A stretch of 14,693 nt of DNA from an uncultured Lachnospiraceae bacterium (GTDB lineage Bacteria > Bacillota > Clostridia > Lachnospirales > Lachnospiraceae), in assembly GCA_949283905.1 (NCBI GenBank), contig CASDUB010000044.1:1-14693 (forward strand), written 5' to 3'. The notes below the pieces were generated by a model. The model did not search any database, was not told the DNA's origin, and was given only the letters and a program-made list of their open reading frames with translations. The position numbers were made by a program, and so were the translations under genes. Positions 1 through 14,231 of the stretch are shown piece after piece (the stretch's first letter is position 1; each line of letters starts with the position of its first letter).

Positions 1-42
1 CCTCTCGGGTGGAAGGAGTATGGGGAGTATGTCATTGAATAA
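1..42 (+). CDS. possible 3' end of an upstream gene (partial)
   Basis: The first frame is open from the window edge and reads PLGWKEYGEYVIE followed by TAA at 40-42. The residue mix (W, Y, E, K, I) looks like a real protein end, and it stops just ahead of the next gene's ribosome binding site, as expected in an operon. A second frame is also open, from base 2 to a TAA at 95-97 that overlaps the next gene. Its translation is less protein-like, but it cannot be excluded. The product cannot be named from 13 residues. Confidence 0.35.
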   Translation, partial: PLGWKEYGEYVIE

Positions 43-80: not shown

Positions 81-3014
81 ATGTCGTCGAACAGTAAATT
101 CTTAAGATATATAAGATCAAAGAAGTTTAAGCGCACGGATTTTTTGCTGATCATTGCAGCCGTGCTTCTTTTTGTGTTTTGTATGGCAGCGGATACGTCC
201 GTTTCGGGAGCGCTGAGCACAAAAGATCGTATATCCCTCGGTTATCAGACGAAACAGGGTGCCGACGGAAATTTTTATACGATAGATAAAAGTCATGAAC
301 GGCTCATATGTTTTGATGAGAGCGGAACTATTCGTTTTTCGATAGAAAATATTAAAAGCGATATAGGCGAGGTATCATATATAGACGACGCAGCAGTTAC
401 AAAAAGCGGGATATATATTTCAGCGAGCCAATGGAATGAAATGTCTATAGAGCGGGAAGCCGTTGTCTTATTTGACCTTAACGGTAAGTATATAGAGACG
501 TGCTTTGGCCGCGATTATTCCGGTGAATATGTGAATAAGCACAGATTTTACGGGGTAACGGAGCAAAACGGCGAAGCGGTGGCTGCCGAATGTCTTGAAA
601 ATGCGATCAATATCGGCTCTGAAACAATTTCCTATGAAAACGCCTTTAACGCCGTCAGCGATATTGAGATCACTGACGAGGCAGTGTATGTTCTCGACAA
701 ATCCGGAGTCATAAAAAAATATTCTCAGGATAAGCGGGAAGGCGAGACGGTCTATTCAAGTATAAACGACGGCGGTCAGATCGTTCCCTACAGACTGGCT
801 GTATCTTCGGCCGGAGATATATATTTTACCGATATTAAAAATAATGAAGTCCGCCTTGTGTCTCAAAATGACGGATCGGGAAAATACGTATGTGATTCGT
901 TCGGATCTCTTACGGCAGATATCGGCGATGACGGAAGCATTCTGCTGACTCCGGGAGACAGTGTTTGTATCGTCCGTGACAACGGAAACGAAACAACTTA
1001 CAGCACTTTGAAAAAGAACGCATCGGATACAGTGATGGGATTTCTGTGGTTTGCGGCTTTTGCGGCATTTATAGTTCTGATCTGCATCATATGCCTTCGT
1101 ATTGTCATACTGCTTATGAACAGAAAATACACGCGTATACAGAAGGTATCTCTTCTTTTGCTGGGTACTGTTGCAGTTGTAGCGATACTTCTGTGCGCCA
1201 TACTTATGAATTCATTTGCCGAAGAATACAGAAGCAAGATAAAAGAACAGGTAGAAACTGCCGCGTATATGATAGCGAATCAGACAGACGGCAGCGATAT
1301 CGAAAATATAGATTCGGCGGAAGATTTCGGCGGCGAATCTTATAAACGCCTGTGCGGCATAATGGAGCGTTCGTTTCCGATGAATATTGATTTCTATCGT
1401 CAGATATACTGCAACATACTTAAAATACCTGATGACGGAAGCGGCGGATATGCCGTGGCGTATCTCGATCAGTCGGTGGGCGCGTATTTTCCTCTCGATG
1501 AGAGCGAGCAGCAGGACCTTTTAAAGGTAAAAAATACGGGCGCCTCAGTTTGGAACGGAGAAGTTGAAGATATTTCAGGTACTTATCTTTCAGTTAAAGT
1601 TCCGGTATACGATGATTCGGGGATGATATGCGGAGCTGTGGCAGTCGGCGTTGAAACTTATGTCATTTCGGACACCATCAGTGAAATGCTGCGCGGCATC
1701 ATATTATCGATACTGGTGATCCTTCTTATCGTATGGATAGTGTCGGTTGAAATAATGCTTTTTATAAACGGATACGGCAAATATAAAGGCGATCTGTCGG
1801 TATCAGGTAAAAAAGCGTTTCCTTCACATCTGCTGAGGATACTTATATTTCTGATATTTGCGGCCTACAATATGACGGCGTCATTTTTGCCGGCGTATCT
1901 GCTTTATAAAGCCGATATATTCGAAGAAAGTATTCAAAGCCTTGCGGCAGCGCTGCCTGTGACGATAAATATTTTCCTGATAGGCGTAATGTCGCTTTTC
2001 TGCGCGGGACTTATAAAAAGGATGGGCGTTAAAAGATTAATGCTGCTTTCGGCATTATGCTCACTTGCGGGAAATCTTATAATATTTGTTTATCCGGAAT
2101 ATTTTATGATCTTTGCGGGACTCATTCTTGACGGCGTAGGTGTCGGCCTCATAACAAATTCCGTCTATGTGATGATAAGCCGCATAAAAGACGAAGACGA
2201 CCGCACGGCGGGATTATCAGTCTACAACAGCGCATATCTTTCGGGTATTAATTTCGGAATGATGACAGGCTCTCTTCTCGCCGTAAATATGGGAAGGCAG
2301 GAAGTATTTGTAATAGTTTCGGCCGTATGGGCGGCGCTTATTTTAATAACGCTTCCGCTGATAAGAAGGGTAGGGGCGGTTATAAAAGATTCGGATAAGG
2401 ACGAATCTGGCAGCGCATCATCTCCTTTGACGATAAGGCGTTATGTTGCTGATAAAAAAGTTCTGGGATTTATGGTGTTCATACAGAATCCGTATATAAT
2501 ATTCAGCAGCTTTGTCTTTTATTATGTGCCTTTATTCTGCGATATGAAGGGATACGGCGAAGCTCTCTGCTCGCTTTTTATTATGATATACTCCCAGATG
2601 GCGATACTGCTTTCGGGATCGCTTACATCGTATGCGTCCAAGATAAAAAGAGGCGGATCGATGTATGCGGCTCTCGGTTTAAACATAGCGGCGGTAGTGA
2701 TCTACGCCGTATTTCAGGATCTTCCGGCAATGATATCCGCTCTTATAATACTCGGAGTCAGCGCCGCCTTCGGAAAACCGGTGCAGCAGAATTACTATCT
2801 CAATATTGACATGACTAAAAAATACGGTGAAGACAGGGCTATGGGAATATATAATTTCTCGGAAAATATCGGAGAATCTTTAGGACCTACCGTCTTCGGA
2901 AAGATGATCTCAGCCGGAAGCATGCGCCTTTCGCTGATGATTTTCTGTGGGTCGGCAGGAGTTATGGGCTTGCTTCACAAGATCATCTGCGGACGGGATA
3001 AAAAAGAAAAGTAA
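81..3014 (+). CDS. propeller-Cache-MFS fusion: sensor-like membrane transporter
   Basis: A 977-residue membrane protein (numbered from the ATG at 81) of unusual architecture. One helix at 21-37 is followed by a region at about 52-312 with repeated beta-hairpin signatures (DGNFYTID 62-69, SGIYIS 109-114, AVYVLDKSG 201-209, GDIYFTD 245-251, DGSILLTPG 284-292), resembling an NHL/PQQ-type beta-propeller. Helices at 318-346 and 356-376 lead to a Cache-like domain (377-537, ending in VPVYDDSGMICGAVAVG). After another helix at 538-562 comes a 12-helix MFS transporter (583-970). The predicted topology is consistent: propeller and Cache outside, MFS entered from the cytoplasm. MFS motif A is recognisable as GLIKRMGVKR (643-652), with Lys where Asp is usual. 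The gene is 19 bases ahead of a PP2C phosphatase gene. Substrate unknown. The MFS call is firm, Cache likely, propeller inferred from pattern only. Ordinary MFS proteins are about 400-450 residues. Confidence 0.8.
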   Translation: MSSNSKFLRYIRSKKFKRTDFLLIIAAVLLFVFCMAADTSVSGALSTKDRISLGYQTKQGADGNFYTIDKSHERLICFDESGTIRFSIENIKSDIGEVSYIDDAAVTKSGIYISASQWNEMSIEREAVVLFDLNGKYIETCFGRDYSGEYVNKHRFYGVTEQNGEAVAAECLENAINIGSETISYENAFNAVSDIEITDEAVYVLDKSGVIKKYSQDKREGETVYSSINDGGQIVPYRLAVSSAGDIYFTDIKNNEVRLVSQNDGSGKYVCDSFGSLTADIGDDGSILLTPGDSVCIVRDNGNETTYSTLKKNASDTVMGFLWFAAFAAFIVLICIICLRIVILLMNRKYTRIQKVSLLLLGTVAVVAILLCAILMNSFAEEYRSKIKEQVETAAYMIANQTDGSDIENIDSAEDFGGESYKRLCGIMERSFPMNIDFYRQIYCNILKIPDDGSGGYAVAYLDQSVGAYFPLDESEQQDLLKVKNTGASVWNGEVEDISGTYLSVKVPVYDDSGMICGAVAVGVETYVISDTISEMLRGIILSILVILLIVWIVSVEIMLFINGYGKYKGDLSVSGKKAFPSHLLRILIFLIFAAYNMTASFLPAYLLYKADIFEESIQSLAAALPVTINIFLIGVMSLFCAGLIKRMGVKRLMLLSALCSLAGNLIIFVYPEYFMIFAGLILDGVGVGLITNSVYVMISRIKDEDDRTAGLSVYNSAYLSGINFGMMTGSLLAVNMGRQEVFVIVSAVWAALILITLPLIRRVGAVIKDSDKDESGSASSPLTIRRYVADKKVLGFMVFIQNPYIIFSSFVFYYVPLFCDMKGYGEALCSLFIMIYSQMAILLSGSLTSYASKIKRGGSMYAALGLNIAAVVIYAVFQDLPAMISALIILGVSAAFGKPVQQNYYLNIDMTKKYGEDRAMGIYNFSENIGESLGPTVFGKMISAGSMRLSLMIFCGSAGVMGLLHKIICGRDKKEK

Positions 3015-3033: not shown

Positions 3034-4686
3034 ATGAAAAGTGAAACGAAAAAATATAAACATCCGTTAAGACGAAAAATGCTTTTGGGATGCGCGCTTT
3101 TCTGTGCGATATCATGCCTGGCTACAGGATTTTTCGGCGCCGTTATCTACACTGACGGAATGTATTCAAGATACGATTCAAATATGACGGATATTCTCGG
3201 ATATGTGATGAGCGGCGTAGATACAGACGATCTTGAAAAATGCATTGAAACAGGTGTGGAATCCGTAAAATTCAGGGAACTGCAGAAACAGCTTGATAAT
3301 ATAAAAGAGAACTTTGACATAGAATATATCTATATAGTTAAGCCTTTGAATACGGAAGAAACCGACAATATGATGAATGTCATTGCCGGCGTTACTCAGT
3401 ATGAGGTCGAATATGAGGCGGATACTCTTGCGCATTTAGGACAGCTTACAGGCACGCTTTATTCGCCGGAGGTGGCGGCGAAGTATCTGGAAGCCATGGA
3501 ACTTGAAAAGGGAGAAGTGAACTTTTTTGAGAACCGCACCGGTTACGGACATGATTACACGGCCATCACTCCGGTTAAAAATTCCGACGGAGTATCGATA
3601 GCGGTGCTTGCGGTTGACCTTTCGATAAACGAAATATACGCGGTGCTCGGAAACTATGTGCTGCTGATATTTGCAGGAACAGTGATACTTATTATCGTCT
3701 TCCTGAATATAATTTACCGCTGGCTTTCAAAAAAGGTAATAGTTCCGGTGTCGAAAATTCAGACGGCTGCGGAGAAATTTGTAAATGAAAGCCGGACGCA
3801 GAACGATCCGGACCTTTTAAGCTATGAAGATCCGAAGATAAATTCTGAAGATGAGATAGAAGCCCTTTCGATGTCGCTTTCAACGCTCGCTTCCGATCTG
3901 AAAAAATACATGAAAAACCTTGTTAAAGAAACAAGGGAAAAAGAGAGAATAGGGACGGAGCTCGCTCTTGCCACAAAGATACAGGCTGATATGCTTCCAT
4001 GCATTTTTCCGCCGTTCCCTGAAAAAAGCGAATTTGATATATATGCCACCATGGAGCCGGCAAAGGAAGTCGGCGGCGACTTTTATGATTTCTTTATGGT
4101 AGACGATAAACATCTGGCAGTGGTAATGGCGGATGTTTCGGGTAAAGGAATACCGGCAGCTCTTTTTATGGTCATAGGAAAAACACTTATCAAAGATCAT
4201 ACCCAGACGGGAATCTCTCTTGGCGATGTTTTTTCGGAAGTAAACGATATGCTCTGCGCGTCCAACAATGAAGGACTTTTTATAACGGCTTTTGAAGGCG
4301 TGCTCGATATCGAGACGGGAGAGTTCAGATATGTGAATGCAGGTCATGAGCCTCCGTATATTTATAAAGCGGGACAGGAATATGAAAAATATAAAGTAAG
4401 ACCCGGATTTGTGCTTGCCGGAATGGAAAATATGAAATACAAAGAAGGCACGCTCAGCCTCATGCCGGGAGATAAGGTATTTCTGTATACCGACGGCGTT
4501 ACTGAAGCTGAAAACACAGGTCCTGAATTATATGGAGACGCCCGCCTGTCCGATATACTCAATAAAACAAAAAATTGTGATGTCGAGCAGACTCTTAAAA
4601 AAGTTCGCGGCGATATCAGTGAATTTACGGACGGCGCCGAGCAGTTCGATGATATTACGATGCTCTGCCTTGAATATCACGGATAA
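3034..4686 (+). CDS. Cache-HAMP-PP2C (SpoIIE/RsbU-type) serine phosphatase
   Basis: A membrane-bound phosphatase of 550 residues, expected to remove phosphate from a Ser/Thr-phosphorylated STAS anti-anti-sigma protein and so release a sigma factor. Domains in order: helix at about 16-40; extracytoplasmic Cache-like sensor at 41-203; helix at 206-229; HAMP at about 230-290 (Pro238, DEIEAL 273-278); a helical linker; and the PP2C domain at about 305-548. Catalytic metal-site motifs are intact: EVGGDFYD (345-352), MADVSGKG (365-372), NAGHEPP (435-441), LYTDGVTEA (484-492) and DDITML (539-544). GAGGA precedes the ATG by 6 bases. The sensor resembles that of the preceding gene, and the RsbW-like kinase gene starts 9 bases later, so the three genes form one operon. 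The family call is secure; the target protein is not in the window. Confidence 0.93.
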   Translation: MKSETKKYKHPLRRKMLLGCALFCAISCLATGFFGAVIYTDGMYSRYDSNMTDILGYVMSGVDTDDLEKCIETGVESVKFRELQKQLDNIKENFDIEYIYIVKPLNTEETDNMMNVIAGVTQYEVEYEADTLAHLGQLTGTLYSPEVAAKYLEAMELEKGEVNFFENRTGYGHDYTAITPVKNSDGVSIAVLAVDLSINEIYAVLGNYVLLIFAGTVILIIVFLNIIYRWLSKKVIVPVSKIQTAAEKFVNESRTQNDPDLLSYEDPKINSEDEIEALSMSLSTLASDLKKYMKNLVKETREKERIGTELALATKIQADMLPCIFPPFPEKSEFDIYATMEPAKEVGGDFYDFFMVDDKHLAVVMADVSGKGIPAALFMVIGKTLIKDHTQTGISLGDVFSEVNDMLCASNNEGLFITAFEGVLDIETGEFRYVNAGHEPPYIYKAGQEYEKYKVRPGFVLAGMENMKYKEGTLSLMPGDKVFLYTDGVTEAENTGPELYGDARLSDILNKTKNCDVEQTLKKVRGDISEFTDGAEQFDDITMLCLEYHG

Positions 4687-4695
4687 GGAGAGATA

Positions 4696-5121
4696 ATGCA
4701 GGAGAATAACACGACTTTTGAAATTAATATCGAAGCTAAAATTGAAAATCAGCAAAAAATGACAGCTTTTATCGAGGAAGTGCTTGAAAAGGCAGATTGT
4801 CCCATGAAAGCGCAGATGCATATATCTGTCGCTGCAGATGAGATATTCAGCAATATAGCTTATTACGCTTATCCCAAAAAAAACGGCAGCGTAACGATAA
4901 AAGCGGAAATAAAGAGCGGACCGAAGGCCGTCGAAATAAAGTTTATTGATTCCGGCATACCGTTTGATCCGCTGAGTATTCCCGAACCGGATGTTACTAA
5001 AAGCGCCGAAGAACGCAGCATAGGCGGACTTGGCATATTTATGGTCAAAAAAATGATGGATGAAGTTTCTTATGAATACAGCGGCGGAAAAAATATATTA
5101 ACGATAAAAAAATATCTATGA
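4696..5121 (+). CDS. RsbW-like anti-sigma factor / serine kinase (HATPase_c)
   Basis: A 141-residue cytoplasmic GHKL-type ATPase, the size of RsbW/SpoIIAB. The family binds a sigma factor, or phosphorylates a STAS antagonist, and switches partner according to that antagonist's phosphorylation. Visible motifs: N-box ADEIFSNIAYYAY (47-59, with Glu49 and Asn53), D-box DSGIPFDP (85-92), and G-box GGLGIFMVKKMMDEV (110-124). AAGGAG at 4685-4690 overlaps the stop codon of the phosphatase gene, 5 bases from the ATG, so translation is probably coupled. The gene ends head-on with the regulator gene, overlapping it by 6 bases. No STAS gene follows, which is unusual since kinase, phosphatase and antagonist are often adjacent. 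Which sigma factor, if any, it holds cannot be read from the sequence. Confidence 0.9.
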   Translation: MQENNTTFEINIEAKIENQQKMTAFIEEVLEKADCPMKAQMHISVAADEIFSNIAYYAYPKKNGSVTIKAEIKSGPKAVEIKFIDSGIPFDPLSIPEPDVTKSAEERSIGGLGIFMVKKMMDEVSYEYSGGKNILTIKKYL

Positions 5122-5748
5122 TATATTGTCCGCTAACTTATAGCTTCCTTTTTTGAGTTTAACAAGCGTTCCGTTATCCGTCATATCTTTTAAAACCCTC
5201 TGGAGCTGGCGGCGGCTGCAGCGTATCTTCGTTGCCATGTCGTCAACTCCGGTAAAAGCGTGGCCGGAGGCTTCATGCTTCAGATATCCCATAAGTCTTT
5301 CTTCGATAGATATGCTTGTGACTTCAAGCCTGATCAAAGTGGCTAATTTTTCGGCAAGGCAGTTGATCGTAAATTGAAGGAAGGATGAGTCTTTTAAAAG
5401 CCGGTCTTTTATTTTTGTGATGTTAAGAGTCACGCATAAAAGATCGGTATGCGCTTCTACAATAAGCGGCAGTGTGATATTGCTGCAAAATTCCAGATCT
5501 CCCAGAAAACCGTTTTCCTCTAAAATACAGAGCTTTGATAATTCGCCGTTGTAATGTATATGGTATATGTTTACGCAGCCGCTGACGATAAATTTTATAT
5601 GGTCGGAATCGTTTTTCGCGTTGTTGAGAACTTCACCCTGATCATAAGAATATAGTTCGAAATTAAGCGGTTCCGTATCAAAATGATCTTCTATCTTAAA
5701 TTTCTCAATATAATATTCCAATAAGTTTTTATCTTTTATTTTTTTCAA
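5116..5748 (-). CDS. Crp/Fnr-family transcription regulator (YeiL-like)
   Basis: A 210-residue DNA-binding regulator. Residues about 20-115 form a cyclic-nucleotide-binding-type beta-roll (SYDQGEVL 34-41, GFLGDLEF 80-87), followed by a dimerisation helix at 115-145. A winged helix-turn-helix of the Crp type follows at about 160-205 (TGVDDMATKIRCSRRQLQRV, then a wing at KLKKGSYKL). The phosphate-binding R-S/T-A signature of true cAMP-binding Crp is absent, so the effector is probably not cAMP. There are six cysteines but no clear Fnr-type Fe-S cluster spacing. The start is TTG at 5748: an in-frame stop lies at 5764-5766, no ATG fits, and only a weak GGGG at 5758-5761 serves as ribosome binding site. 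It diverges from the MATE gene and likely controls it and itself through the palindrome at 5792-5809. Confidence 0.88.
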   Translation of the reverse strand: MKKIKDKNLLEYYIEKFKIEDHFDTEPLNFELYSYDQGEVLNNAKNDSDHIKFIVSGCVNIYHIHYNGELSKLCILEENGFLGDLEFCSNITLPLIVEAHTDLLCVTLNITKIKDRLLKDSSFLQFTINCLAEKLATLIRLEVTSISIEERLMGYLKHEASGHAFTGVDDMATKIRCSRRQLQRVLKDMTDNGTLVKLKKGSYKLADNIS

Positions 5749-7347: not shown

Positions 7348-9351
7348 ATGAAAAACGTCAGGAAATTAATTTGTGTACTCAGTTGTCTGGCTCTTTTTAT
7401 GACTGCACCGTTGTCCGTTTTTGCGGATGATGTTTCAGAAACTGAGCCGTTGAATAATACGGAACTTACAGGAGAAGGAACGGCGGACAGTCCGTATATT
7501 ATTTCAACTGCTGATGAATTAAAAGCTTTTGCTCAAAAGGTAAACGGCGGCGAGAGAACCGCATATGCAACTCTTGCAGCTGATATAGATCTTAATCCGG
7601 GGATAATATTTAATGCGGACGGTACTTATACCGGAGGAGAACCGGAACAGTGGACGCCTATAGAAGATTTTACCGGCGTCTTTGACGGAGGTCAGCATTA
7701 TATAAAAGGACTTTACATTAACAGATCGGATGAGGATAATCAGGGACTCTTTGGCGATGTTGCGTGTACTATAACGAACCTGGGCATCGAGAACAGTTAT
7801 GTGTGCGGTGCTGAATATGTGGGCAGCATATGCGCGCGCAACGGAAAAGGCGGAGTGATAGAGTCATGTTATAACTCGGGAACTGTTGACGGCAGCCGTA
7901 ATGTCGGAGGAATAGCCGGATATGCATTTGATATTACCGCATGCGCCAATGACGGAAATGTAACGGCGGATGTAAATGCAGCCGGAGGAATAGCAGGAAC
8001 AAGCCAGGGCAATGTCACTCTTTGTTACAATACGGGAGCAGTATATGCAGGCAATGATGCCGCAGGCGGAGTCCTTGGAAGCAGCCGCGGCAATGTGGAA
8101 AAATGCTTTAATACGGGAAATGTTTCTTCCGGCGGAGGAGCCTGGGATTCGATCGGCGGAGTGATAGGAGCTATTTCTACATACAGCGCAAGTGCAGTAA
8201 TAGAAAACTGTTATAATTTAGGAACTGTAAACGGCGCGAACCAGTATGCCGGAGGTATTGTCGGAAGTCTCGGAAGAAAATGCCATGTCGTAAACAATTT
8301 CAATATGGGCGGATTAACAGGCGGCGCGCAATTCGGAAATATTGCCGGAAGCATCAGCAGCGCGGCTTCTGTAGACAATTCTTATTATCTGTTTGAAGAA
8401 GAAACGGCTGACGGCGGAAAGACAGCCGAACAGTTTGCTTCAGGTGAGGTGGCTTACCTTTTAAATACCGATGAGGCGGAGCTTGTATGGAAACAGAATA
8501 TCGATAACGGAGAAGGCAATCCGGGATATCCTTCGTTTTCGGGCGAAGATGTTTACATGATAAATAAATACGCTACATGTGATAAATCTGATACACCGAC
8601 CATAGGATACAGCAATACGGACGCGGATATCGCAGGAGCGCATGACCTTATAAGACATGAAGGCGTACCGGCCGAGTGTACAAAAGACGGAAATACAGAA
8701 TACTGGCAGTGCGCGGCATGCGGAAAATATTTTTCGGATGAAGCAGCCGCAAATGAGATAACGCAGGAGATGACGGTTATACCTATGAGCGGCCACAGCC
8801 TTGTGAAGACAGAAGCTAAAGATGCGACATGTACAGAGGCGGGCAACACAGAATACTGGCAGTGCACGGCATGCGGAAAATATTTCTCGGATGAGAACGC
8901 ATCAAATGAGATCACGGCAGATGATACGGTTATCGATGCATTGGGACACACGCCCGAGATCAAAGGCGTAAAAGAAGCTTCCTGCACACAGGAAGGATAC
9001 ACCGGCGATAAGGTTTGTTCGGTATGCGGCAAGACATTGGAAAAGGGAACAACAGTTGAAAAACTCGCCCATAATTTTAAGGACGGAAAATGTACGGTAT
9101 GCGGAGCGAAAGATCCAAATTATGTTCCGAAAGAACCTGAACAACCTACAAAGCCTGAGCAGACTACAAAGCCTGAGCAGACTACAAAACCTGTACAGGC
9201 AGGAAATGCCCCAAAACCGAATGCAGATAATGGAAACGTTACGTCAGCTCCTACAGGCGATGAAAGCAATGTATTGGGCTGGGCGGTTGTGATCGCAATA
9301 GCATCAGCAGGCGCTGCGGCGGCCATTGCAGGCAGAAGACATAAAAAATAA
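7348..9351 (+). CDS. secreted surface protein with GLUG-like and CxxC repeats
   Basis: A 667-residue exported protein. A signal peptide (1-26, basic KNVRK then a hydrophobic core, likely cut after VFA) precedes a region opening with DSPYIISTADELKAFAQKV (47-65), typical of Firmicute adhesin-like proteins. Glycine-rich repeats of GLUG type follow (GLFGD 133-137, VGGIAGY 186-192, AGGIAGTSQGNV 212-223, AGGVLGSSRGNV 239-250, IGGVIGA 269-275, AGGIVGSLG 301-309), each paired with CYN/CFNTG-type strands, probably a beta-solenoid. Three 51-residue repeats at 432-574 carry CxxCGK. A Lys-Pro-Glu-Gln-Thr linker (592-616) leads to a degenerate sorting motif (APTGD, 634-638), a helix (642-662) and RRHKK. 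It is probably wall- or membrane-anchored. Adhesion or matrix binding is inference. It is monocistronic, between its own promoter and terminator. Confidence 0.85.
   Translation: MKNVRKLICVLSCLALFMTAPLSVFADDVSETEPLNNTELTGEGTADSPYIISTADELKAFAQKVNGGERTAYATLAADIDLNPGIIFNADGTYTGGEPEQWTPIEDFTGVFDGGQHYIKGLYINRSDEDNQGLFGDVACTITNLGIENSYVCGAEYVGSICARNGKGGVIESCYNSGTVDGSRNVGGIAGYAFDITACANDGNVTADVNAAGGIAGTSQGNVTLCYNTGAVYAGNDAAGGVLGSSRGNVEKCFNTGNVSSGGGAWDSIGGVIGAISTYSASAVIENCYNLGTVNGANQYAGGIVGSLGRKCHVVNNFNMGGLTGGAQFGNIAGSISSAASVDNSYYLFEEETADGGKTAEQFASGEVAYLLNTDEAELVWKQNIDNGEGNPGYPSFSGEDVYMINKYATCDKSDTPTIGYSNTDADIAGAHDLIRHEGVPAECTKDGNTEYWQCAACGKYFSDEAAANEITQEMTVIPMSGHSLVKTEAKDATCTEAGNTEYWQCTACGKYFSDENASNEITADDTVIDALGHTPEIKGVKEASCTQEGYTGDKVCSVCGKTLEKGTTVEKLAHNFKDGKCTVCGAKDPNYVPKEPEQPTKPEQTTKPEQTTKPVQAGNAPKPNADNGNVTSAPTGDESNVLGWAVVIAIASAGAAAAIAGRRHKK
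8641..9117 (+). repeat. tandem 153-base coding repeats (CxxC modules)
   Basis: Units start at His codons 8641, 8794 and 8947, a 51-residue period, with a shortened fourth start at 9070 (HNFKDGKCTVCG). Units one and two are very close in DNA: 8689-8763 and 8842-8916 differ at only a minority of bases and share TGCGGAAAATATTT. The third has diverged. Each unit has Cys-x8-11-Cys-x2-CysGK, so the cysteines may bind metal or form disulfides. Confidence 0.85.
9151..9186 (+). repeat. 18-base tandem repeat in the linker
   Basis: Two exact copies of AAGCCTGAGCAGACTACA (9151-9168 and 9169-9186) are flanked by degenerate copies. They encode Lys-Pro-Glu-Gln-Thr-Thr, a wall-spanning type linker that can change length by slippage. 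Confidence 0.85.
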
Positions 9352-13502: not shown

Positions 13503-14231
13503 TTGGCGAATAAAGAAGTATCAGTACAGAAAAAGAAAGAATTGAAAGAGGCTATGTACGAATGGCTCGGCAAAAATGAAGAAGAATTCAGACAGCTGAT
13601 GTCATACTACAGATGCGCCATGATGGAGATCGAAACAAAGTTTAATGTGCTCAAAGAAGAGCTTTCATTAAAATTTGACAGAAACCCAATTGAAGGCATC
13701 AGAACACGTATTAAGACGACAGATAGTATTTTTGAGAAGCTTATCAGAAGAGAGTTCCCTGTTACTATGGAAAGTCTTGAGAGAAATATCAACGATGTGG
13801 CGGGAATCAGAGTGATCTGTTCCTTCCCGTCAGATATTTATCAGCTGGCTGATGCGCTTTTGTCACAGGACGATATAATCCTTATCGAAAAAAAGGATTA
13901 TATGAAAAATCCTAAGCAAAACGGGTACAGAAGTCTCCATCTGATTGTTGCTCTGCCCATATTCCTACATGATCACAAGAAAATGATGACGGTAGAGATA
14001 CAGTTCAGAACTATCGCTATGGACTGGTGGGCAAGCCTTGAACACAAGATCAGATACAAGAGAAATCTGCCGAATCTCCCTGAGATAGAGGAATCTCTTT
14101 TAAGATGCGCTTTAAGAAGCTATTATCTCGATCTTGAAATGGAAAATATTTACAAGACGGCTATCGGTGAAAGCGACAATACAAAACCGCTTTTCAGCGA
14201 CAGAAAAATGAAGCAAGAAGGAAAACAGTAA
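13503..14231 (+). CDS. small alarmone synthetase, RelQ/YjbM-like GTP pyrophosphokinase
   Basis: A 242-residue protein with only the RelA/SpoT synthetase domain. It transfers pyrophosphate from ATP to GDP or GTP to make (p)ppGpp. Motifs: R-type substrate segment GIRTRIKTTDSIFEKL (65-80), DVAGIRVIC (98-106), NGYRSLHLIV (140-149), and EIQFRTIAMDWWASLEHKIRY (165-185). There is no HD hydrolase, TGS or ACT domain, so it is a stand-alone synthetase; B. subtilis YjbM is about 211 residues. Start: TTG at 13503, with a weak TTGGA at 13490-13494; an ATG at 13554 would give 225 residues but has AGAGG only 2 bases away. The extra basic N-terminus (KKKELKEAMYEWLGKNEEEF) depends on this choice. The gene lies 28 bases after alaS and abuts clpX. 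Co-transcription with two synthetase genes links alarmone production to tRNA charging capacity. relQ is the closest symbol but the subtype is inferred. Confidence 0.92.
   Translation: MANKEVSVQKKKELKEAMYEWLGKNEEEFRQLMSYYRCAMMEIETKFNVLKEELSLKFDRNPIEGIRTRIKTTDSIFEKLIRREFPVTMESLERNINDVAGIRVICSFPSDIYQLADALLSQDDIILIEKKDYMKNPKQNGYRSLHLIVALPIFLHDHKKMMTVEIQFRTIAMDWWASLEHKIRYKRNLPNLPEIEESLLRCALRSYYLDLEMENIYKTAIGESDNTKPLFSDRKMKQEGKQ

Follow-up and report, generated by a model that had tools for sequence, protein, structure and literature searches.

The stretch of DNA considered here, hereafter the window, is the whole of contig CASDUB010000044.1 (C44; 14,693 nucleotides) from a draft genome of an uncultured Lachnospiraceae bacterium (GCA_949283905.1; 82.6% complete). 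Positions 81 to 3014 of its forward strand encode a protein of 977 amino acids (aa) in which a transporter of the major facilitator superfamily (MFS) is joined to a sensor-like part. This fusion had been proposed by a sequence-only reading, and the observation is confirmed, including the uninterrupted frame of 977 codons; the interpretation that accompanied it is partly supported. The parts of the protein follow one another on the same strand. A transmembrane (TM) helix or signal anchor (residues 18-37, positions 132-191), recognized in the AlphaFold2 (AF2) model and by hydropathy, precedes a six-bladed NHL-type beta-propeller (residues 48-311, positions 222-1013). A pair of helices (residues 314-346 and 352-401, positions 1020-1283), placed by AF2 and by loop charge on either side of a positively charged cytoplasmic turn, leads to an sCache-like domain (residues 402-525, positions 1284-1655), into which the second helix of the pair continues. 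A long TM helix (residues 526-575, positions 1656-1805; AF2) then connects to a 12-helix MFS domain (residues 582-974, positions 1824-3002), which is supported by Pfam (MFS_1, 8.9e-30), AF2 and Foldseek.

Profiles and AF2 thus bear out an architecture of propeller, Cache-like domain and full MFS transporter. The propeller has the fold of an NHL-type six-bladed beta-propeller. When the whole model was submitted to Foldseek, the 50 matches listed were solely MFS proteins, and a separate model of the sensor part was therefore made. The assignment of the second domain as a probable Cache domain (sCache_3) rests on profile matches and agrees with its conservation: sCache_3_2 matches 23 of 31 members of the fusion family at E <= 0.01, with the window protein at 23.6 bits against a cut-off of 28.4, and the Cache profile matches sensor-domain entries of CitA and DcuS in the PDB (E 0.005-0.009). 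The Cache alignment comprised 23 of 24 Cache stretches, with L053 excluded. The invariant positions of the domain include Y421, N445, Y461, D463, S465 and E476, and none is Arg or His. Loop 340-357 carries 3.5 K+R against 0.2 D+E, and according to the models and this charge pattern both the propeller and the Cache domain are predicted to be extracytoplasmic, with a coherent MFS topology, as the sequence-only reading had held. Neither Pfam nor NCBIfam detected a cytoplasmic signalling domain in the fusion, and its modelled cytoplasmic parts are short.

The same arrangement recurs in other genomes. Among 66 database relatives (clusters at 90% identity, drawn from at least 7997 scored candidates), 63 are 31-69% identical to the fusion and span at least 92% of it; the named source organisms include Candidatus Alectryocaccobium, Lachnospira, Butyrivibrio, Lachnospiraceae and Erysipelotrichaceae. 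The arrangement is also found in the genomes G006, G731, G699 and others. With the draft genome in 299 contigs, an assembly error joining separate genes might be suspected; because the full-length arrangement recurs, we reject this explanation as having practically no chance of being right. The fusion is a real, recurrent architecture. It is spread unevenly: a match at E <= 1e-20 was obtained in 24 of the 397 genomes from the same family, 9 of 391 at the class level match at 1e-10, and 2 of 7 genomes of the same genus were found in a search of 61 genomes. A pattern scan of the genome contigs returned 15 pattern matches, none of which was confirmed as a relative.

All 24 matches within the family lie in frames given as 591-1045 aa. 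The shortest of these frames, 591 aa by the tool (G570, L074), reads as a 405-aa MFS frame after an overlapping 327-aa frame, and we count this genome as doubtful because its frame appears to be split. At L074:6944-9071 the sensor-like and MFS parts stand in two overlapping frames, which may be split genes or a frameshift. In G041 (C177; L005/L078), a 415-aa MFS frame (E 2.7e-25) starts at a contig end, and its sensor may have been cut off. We do not claim outright that MFS proteins of this clade are always fused, as the frames of G041 and G570 leave possible exceptions. Conservation was measured as mean pairwise identity in an alignment of 31 fusion members: of the eight stretches measured, the Cache domain ranks first at 49%, followed by the two MFS halves (48% and 46%), the propeller (37%), and the linkers and helices (18-31%). 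In one relative, P0057 (1450 aa), an extra MFS-like stretch stands ahead of the whole propeller-Cache-MFS protein in a single frame; its precomputed Pfam families are PF00083, PF13347 and PF07690, and it may represent either a genuine double transporter or two genes joined in the gene call.

The fusion gene had been described as the first in its operon. However, window positions 1-42 (+) hold the last 13 codons and the stop of an upstream gene, which we call c1; frame 1 reads PLGWKEYGEYVIE up to the stop, and this end is assigned to c1 because, in G006, the gene that precedes the fusion ends in KEYGEYVIE. In this genome c1 was detected once, cut short by the end of contig C71 (L080:1-1053), and the rest of the window's c1 very likely lies there. 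The widespread c1 family includes, at E <= 0.001, 297 relatives in the database, the named ones among the best 120 of the 297 being hypothetical proteins, and two relatives tested gave no Pfam match at 0.01. A promoter scan was uninformative (19 found vs 15.3 expected).

Downstream of the fusion, with a gap of 19 bp, a membrane PP2C phosphatase of 550 aa (3034-4686, +; SpoIIE domain, 1.3e-46) is encoded; no other SpoIIE-domain gene was found in the 82.6%-complete genome. Over residues 191-546 it resembles SiaA (NCBIfam E 4.7e-14, below cut-off), and its extracytoplasmic region is at best weakly Cache-like in Pfam (dCache_1 0.015, below cut-off). Nine bp further lies a stand-alone kinase of 141 aa (4696-5121, +; HATPase_c_2, 8.9e-25), which is RsbW/SpoIIAB-like (NCBIfam RsbW 8.2e-11, below its cut-off). 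Six other HATPase_c_2 matches were found, but their frames measure 275-590 aa, so that this gene alone has the size of RsbW. The 3' end of this gene overlaps by 6 bases the 3' end of a CRP/FNR-like regulator gene (cNMP_binding; 5116-5748, -). In G006 (L045), the PP2C and the HATPase are held in one frame. A STAS gene, which keeps the SSAG motif, lies divergent from c1 on C71; a second STAS gene is found on C216, giving two in all. The motifs seen in related PP2C and HATPase proteins are intact in those of the window, and we take the key motifs of the three proteins to be those of partner switching. The PP2C, HATPase and STAS genes form a partner-switch gene set, the action of which would follow from known switches. 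The kinase had been called an anti-sigma kinase; the HATPase_c_2 assignment stands, and an anti-sigma role is not established because no sigma factor of SigB/SigF size was found in the 82.6%-complete assembly, in which the Sigma70_r2 frames are of 389, 196 and 165 aa only, one of RpoD size and two short.

The MFS domain scores 104.2 bits against the MFS_1 cut-off of 33.4, and all 31 members match this family. Its nearest solved transporters are NorC and NorA by profile and NorC, LmrP, MFSD10 and VMAT by fold (Foldseek), at 12-18% identity to the solved structures listed. The multidrug model TIGR00880 matches at 6.7e-8 with 32.7 bits against a curated cut-off of 131, and the domain could not be classed by it as a DHA1 exporter. 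Since sequence and fold place the MFS closest to DHA1-type H+-antiport exporters, we infer that export is more likely than import. G722, G726 and G730 are invariant in the 31 sequences, a pattern that resembles antiporter motif C, apart from the missing proline, and that likewise speaks for export. Moreover, the polar helix residues N597, T628, N630, N693, N716, N724, Q802, N925, N929, E932 and S933 are invariant in the same sequences, and they suggest a working pocket.

A homologous sensor part is also found on another output. In L077 (6991-9738) and P0188, a propeller-TM-TM-Cache-TM part is followed by HAMP and Guanylate_cyc (class III cyclase) domains, and P0189 has the same pair by precomputed Pfam; the homologous part matches over residues 12-560 at 20% identity (E 6.4e-19). 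In these cyclase relatives HAMP comes after the position of the long TM helix, and in the L077 protein Pfam places it at residues 573-622. When the sensor part by itself was the query, 49 of 392 genomes of the order matched at 1e-8, and many weaker matches cover the Cache part alone, among them L106, a chemoreceptor, and L107, a hybrid histidine kinase. Ten further sensor-matching frames (G041 and G699 apart) are 904-929 aa long; all five that were scanned match HAMP, four of them above cut-off, and the stretch after HAMP received no assignment. Among these five, the match spans most of the sensor profile in L099 and L101 and only its later part in the other three. Conversely, the MFS part also occurs with other or shorter N-terminal parts (L050, L051, L052 and L076), in which Pfam sees MFS-type families only.

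To describe the gene neighbourhoods, we used 34 fetched regions and the window, 35 in all, picked by their match to the fusion and not by their neighbours. Six weak rows (G027 twice, G008:C23, G057, G029 and G019; E 6e-7 to 1e-4) from the 13-row search of 61 genomes were left out. The MFS part is present in 34 of the 35 regions, L077 having the sensor only. Counting the window among these 34 neighbourhoods, a PP2C gene lies near the MFS part in 23; all 23 share its strand, and 22 are no more than 2.5 kb away. An HATPase gene is present in 14 of the 34 and a STAS gene in 3. Recurrence near PP2C and HATPase genes, a check that the sequence-only reading had called for, is thus supported. In 19 of the 34 regions all three domains, propeller, Cache and MFS, are recognized by profiles (weakly in L053), and 13 of these 19 have a PP2C. 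As a control, MFS_1 matches at E <= 1e-15 were collected from five fusion-bearing genomes: none of the 11 matches in frames below 500 aa shares a contig with a SpoIIE gene, and 4 of the 6 sensor-fused matches adjoin one. Only the former count serves as a control, because the genomes were chosen after the neighbourhoods had been seen. SpoIIE matches number 1-5 per genome in the ten genomes searched. At L051:110-5966, a compact run of STAS, sensor-MFS, D-Ala-D-Ala-ligase-like ATP-grasp, dCache-HAMP-SpoIIE and HATPase genes places a whole partner-switch set around the transporter.

The other neighbours are varied. A c1-like cluster occurs in 9 of the 35 regions and stands directly upstream of the fusion in 7 of the 9. 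LPG_synthase_C-like genes form a cluster in 9 regions, both members tested matching that family. GNAT genes are found in L048 (just below cut-off), L053, L069 and L074; D-Ala-D-Ala-ligase-like genes in L051 (tested) and L073 (by clustering); an alanine racemase gene in L075; and a formyltransferase gene in L072. Periplasmic-binding proteins were recognized by test in L058, L071, L075 and L076 and a 5'-nucleotidase in L070; a neighbour in L068 matched Mor weakly, and two tested neighbours, in L050 and L076 (282 aa), gave no match. NHLP-type bacteriocin exporter genes lie directly upstream of the sensor-MFS gene at L066:1559-6924, two of the three being above the NCBIfam cut-off and the third just below; by clustering only, such genes also lie directly upstream in L057 and L058 and one gene away in L049. 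In L062, a gene with HAMP and cyclase-like domains stands beside the fusion (Guanylate_cyc 17.2 bits, below cut-off).

Elsewhere in the window, positions 7348-9351 encode a secreted-looking GLUG-repeat protein with two repeats of the form YWQC(T/A)ACGKYFSDE and, at its C-terminus, a TKPEQ-rich stretch and a hydrophobic tail. Positions 13503-14231 encode a small RelA_SpoT-domain protein, which is ppGpp synthetase-like; the genes flanking it we take to be alanyl-tRNA synthetase-like and ClpX-like.

Tentatively, at a likelihood that we place a little short of even, we read the fusion as a membrane receptor that has a transporter as its output, in which an outside ligand gates an exporter-like MFS encoded beside a PP2C/STAS/HATPase switch. 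The NHL propeller and the sCache-like domain would bind the ligand outside the membrane, and the resulting change would travel down the helices into the attached MFS, as it may in the propeller-Cache-HAMP-cyclase receptors, and alter the transport cycle. The MFS would export its substrate in the manner of DHA1 proteins. The membrane PP2C, which has an outside region of its own, would act with the HATPase kinase and the STAS protein as a phosphorylation partner switch, which probably adjusts how strongly the export system is expressed, or how active it is, to the signal that the sensor reads or to a related one. This mechanism is moderately supported, and the coupling of sensor to MFS is suggested by the architecture. 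Because the homologous sensor carries a HAMP-cyclase output in relatives, the MFS stands in the position of a receptor output, and this is the main reason why we prefer a sensor that gates the transporter over a transporter that reports to a signalling system. Citrate or a C4-dicarboxylate, which the likeness to CitA and DcuS might suggest as the ligand, was not adopted; DcuS and CitA pockets use Arg and His, and the Cache domain has no invariant residue of either kind.

The sequence-only reading took the opposite direction and proposed a transceptor, in which the MFS, aided by the outer domains, binds and moves its substrate and its conformation is reported to the PP2C, which switches the STAS/HATPase pair. 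This proposal fits with where the PP2C gene lies, 19 bp behind the fusion in the window and close to the MFS part in most neighbourhoods, and CbrA is a known protein that joins transporter and receptor (PMC13022988). However, the fusion has no cytoplasmic signalling domain. The PP2C need not be informed by the MFS, because it has its own outside region, weakly matched by dCache_1 in the window and strongly in the L051 relative (1.2e-27); and the sensor can signal inward without an MFS, because its homologue sits on a cyclase. We therefore consider a transceptor unlikely, though of appreciable weight, as the cyclase relatives in L077, P0188 and P0189 favor the MFS as output rather than reporter. 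A different concern is that the MFS has lost transport and serves as a membrane scaffold or as the ligand pocket of the receptor. UhpC-like sensor MFS proteins are known, and the acid of motif A is mostly replaced here by R or K. However, the many polar helix positions that are invariant, together with an MFS conservation that about equals that of the Cache domain, are as expected of a working transporter, and we regard a transport-dead MFS as improbable. Slightly more doubtful still is the explanation that the outer domains are no sensors but scaffolds, or an enzyme that hands substrate to the transporter. Some propellers are enzymes, such as lactonases and lyases; profile and fold comparisons match this one to SGL/lactonase-type and virginiamycin B lyase propellers, among others, and the neighbouring genes often encode enzymes or periplasmic-binding proteins; against this, the propeller-Cache unit also occurs on the cyclases of L077 and P0188, where no outside substrate would be received, and the receptor kinase PknD has a similar propeller.

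Several points weigh against the receptor with a transporter output. Motif A of the MFS, G-x3-[DE]-[RK]-x-G-[RK]2, is common and not strictly defining, but its acid is absent from all 31 sequences (position 646 is R in 21, K in 4, A in 4, Q in 1 and S in 1), and transport might be altered or abolished as a result. How sensor and MFS are placed relative to each other is uncertain in the AF2 model (pTM 0.60), and few sensor-cyclase fusions have been established along the whole length of the sensor. In 15 of the 34 regions the profiles miss the propeller, the Cache domain or both, or the outer domains differ. No PP2C is present in 11 of the 34 neighbourhoods and no HATPase in 20, and one PP2C that was counted (L046) is without the motifs kept by the others. 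The switch is therefore not obligatory, and we reject a strict pairing with PP2C and HATPase; the absences are soft because some regions stop at contig ends. Finally, the link between contigs C71 and C44 is an inferred one.

A wider proposal, which we think distinctly unlikely as a whole, is that the locus is a self-contained system of chemical communication: an enzyme of the operon would make a small, perhaps amino-acid-derived molecule, the MFS would export it, the fused propeller and Cache domain would read it outside the cell and gate its further export, and the membrane PP2C/STAS/HATPase switch would convert it into a response of the cell. The maker would perhaps be c1 here and, in relatives, an LPG_synthase_C-like transferase, a GNAT, a D-Ala-D-Ala-ligase-like ATP-grasp enzyme, an alanine racemase or a formyltransferase.

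Set beside known systems, the protein is best regarded as a transporter-receptor fusion in reversed order, with the MFS as its likely output. CbrA-type proteins are the published transporter-receptor fusions, with the transporter first and the kinase last (PMC9100948, PMC13022988, PMC7918813). The SLC5/STAC histidine kinases CbrA and CrbS resemble the present protein in holding a full secondary transporter and signal-transduction parts in one polypeptide (PMC9100948, PMC13022988); here, however, two extracytoplasmic domains come first, the MFS comes last and there is no kinase. The sensor kinases CitA, DcuS and MalK have the nearest Cache domain, likewise set between two TM helices, whereas in the fusion an NHL propeller precedes the Cache and the MFS replaces the histidine kinase. 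The propeller of PknD is C-terminal to a Ser/Thr kinase; the similar propeller of the fusion is N-terminal to a Cache-MFS unit. The RsbU/RsbW/RsbV and SpoIIE/SpoIIAB/SpoIIAA systems and SiaA-type PP2Cs share the gene set of PP2C, HATPase kinase and STAS protein, but here it is tied to a sensor-transporter and no sigma factor of SigB/SigF size was found in the incomplete assembly. The DHA1-type exporters NorA, NorC, LmrP and VMAT share the MFS fold and are the nearest sequence matches, and differ in the absence of a fused sensor, in the acid of motif A and in the low identity given above. In the alpha2-delta subunits of calcium channels, an outside Cache domain can belong to the complex of a membrane conduit and bind small ligands (PMC9901441); unlike that separate subunit of a eukaryotic channel, the Cache here is a covalent part of a bacterial transporter. 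Among the papers listed by searches of the open-access literature, judged by titles and abstract openings, none deals with a sensor-MFS fusion like the present one, which is weak evidence of absence, and within this scope the architecture is apparently undescribed.

Bacterial receptors are usually classed by their outputs, for example kinase, cyclase, phosphatase or chemotaxis signalling. If our reading is true, a receptor module that is placed on a cyclase in some species and on an MFS in others would add the transporter to these output classes, and the fusion would offer a testable system for the direct gating of a secondary transporter by a ligand. The locus represents an uncharacterised type of operon in gut Lachnospiraceae and their relatives, and it is adjoined by enzymes that are candidates for making the ligand.

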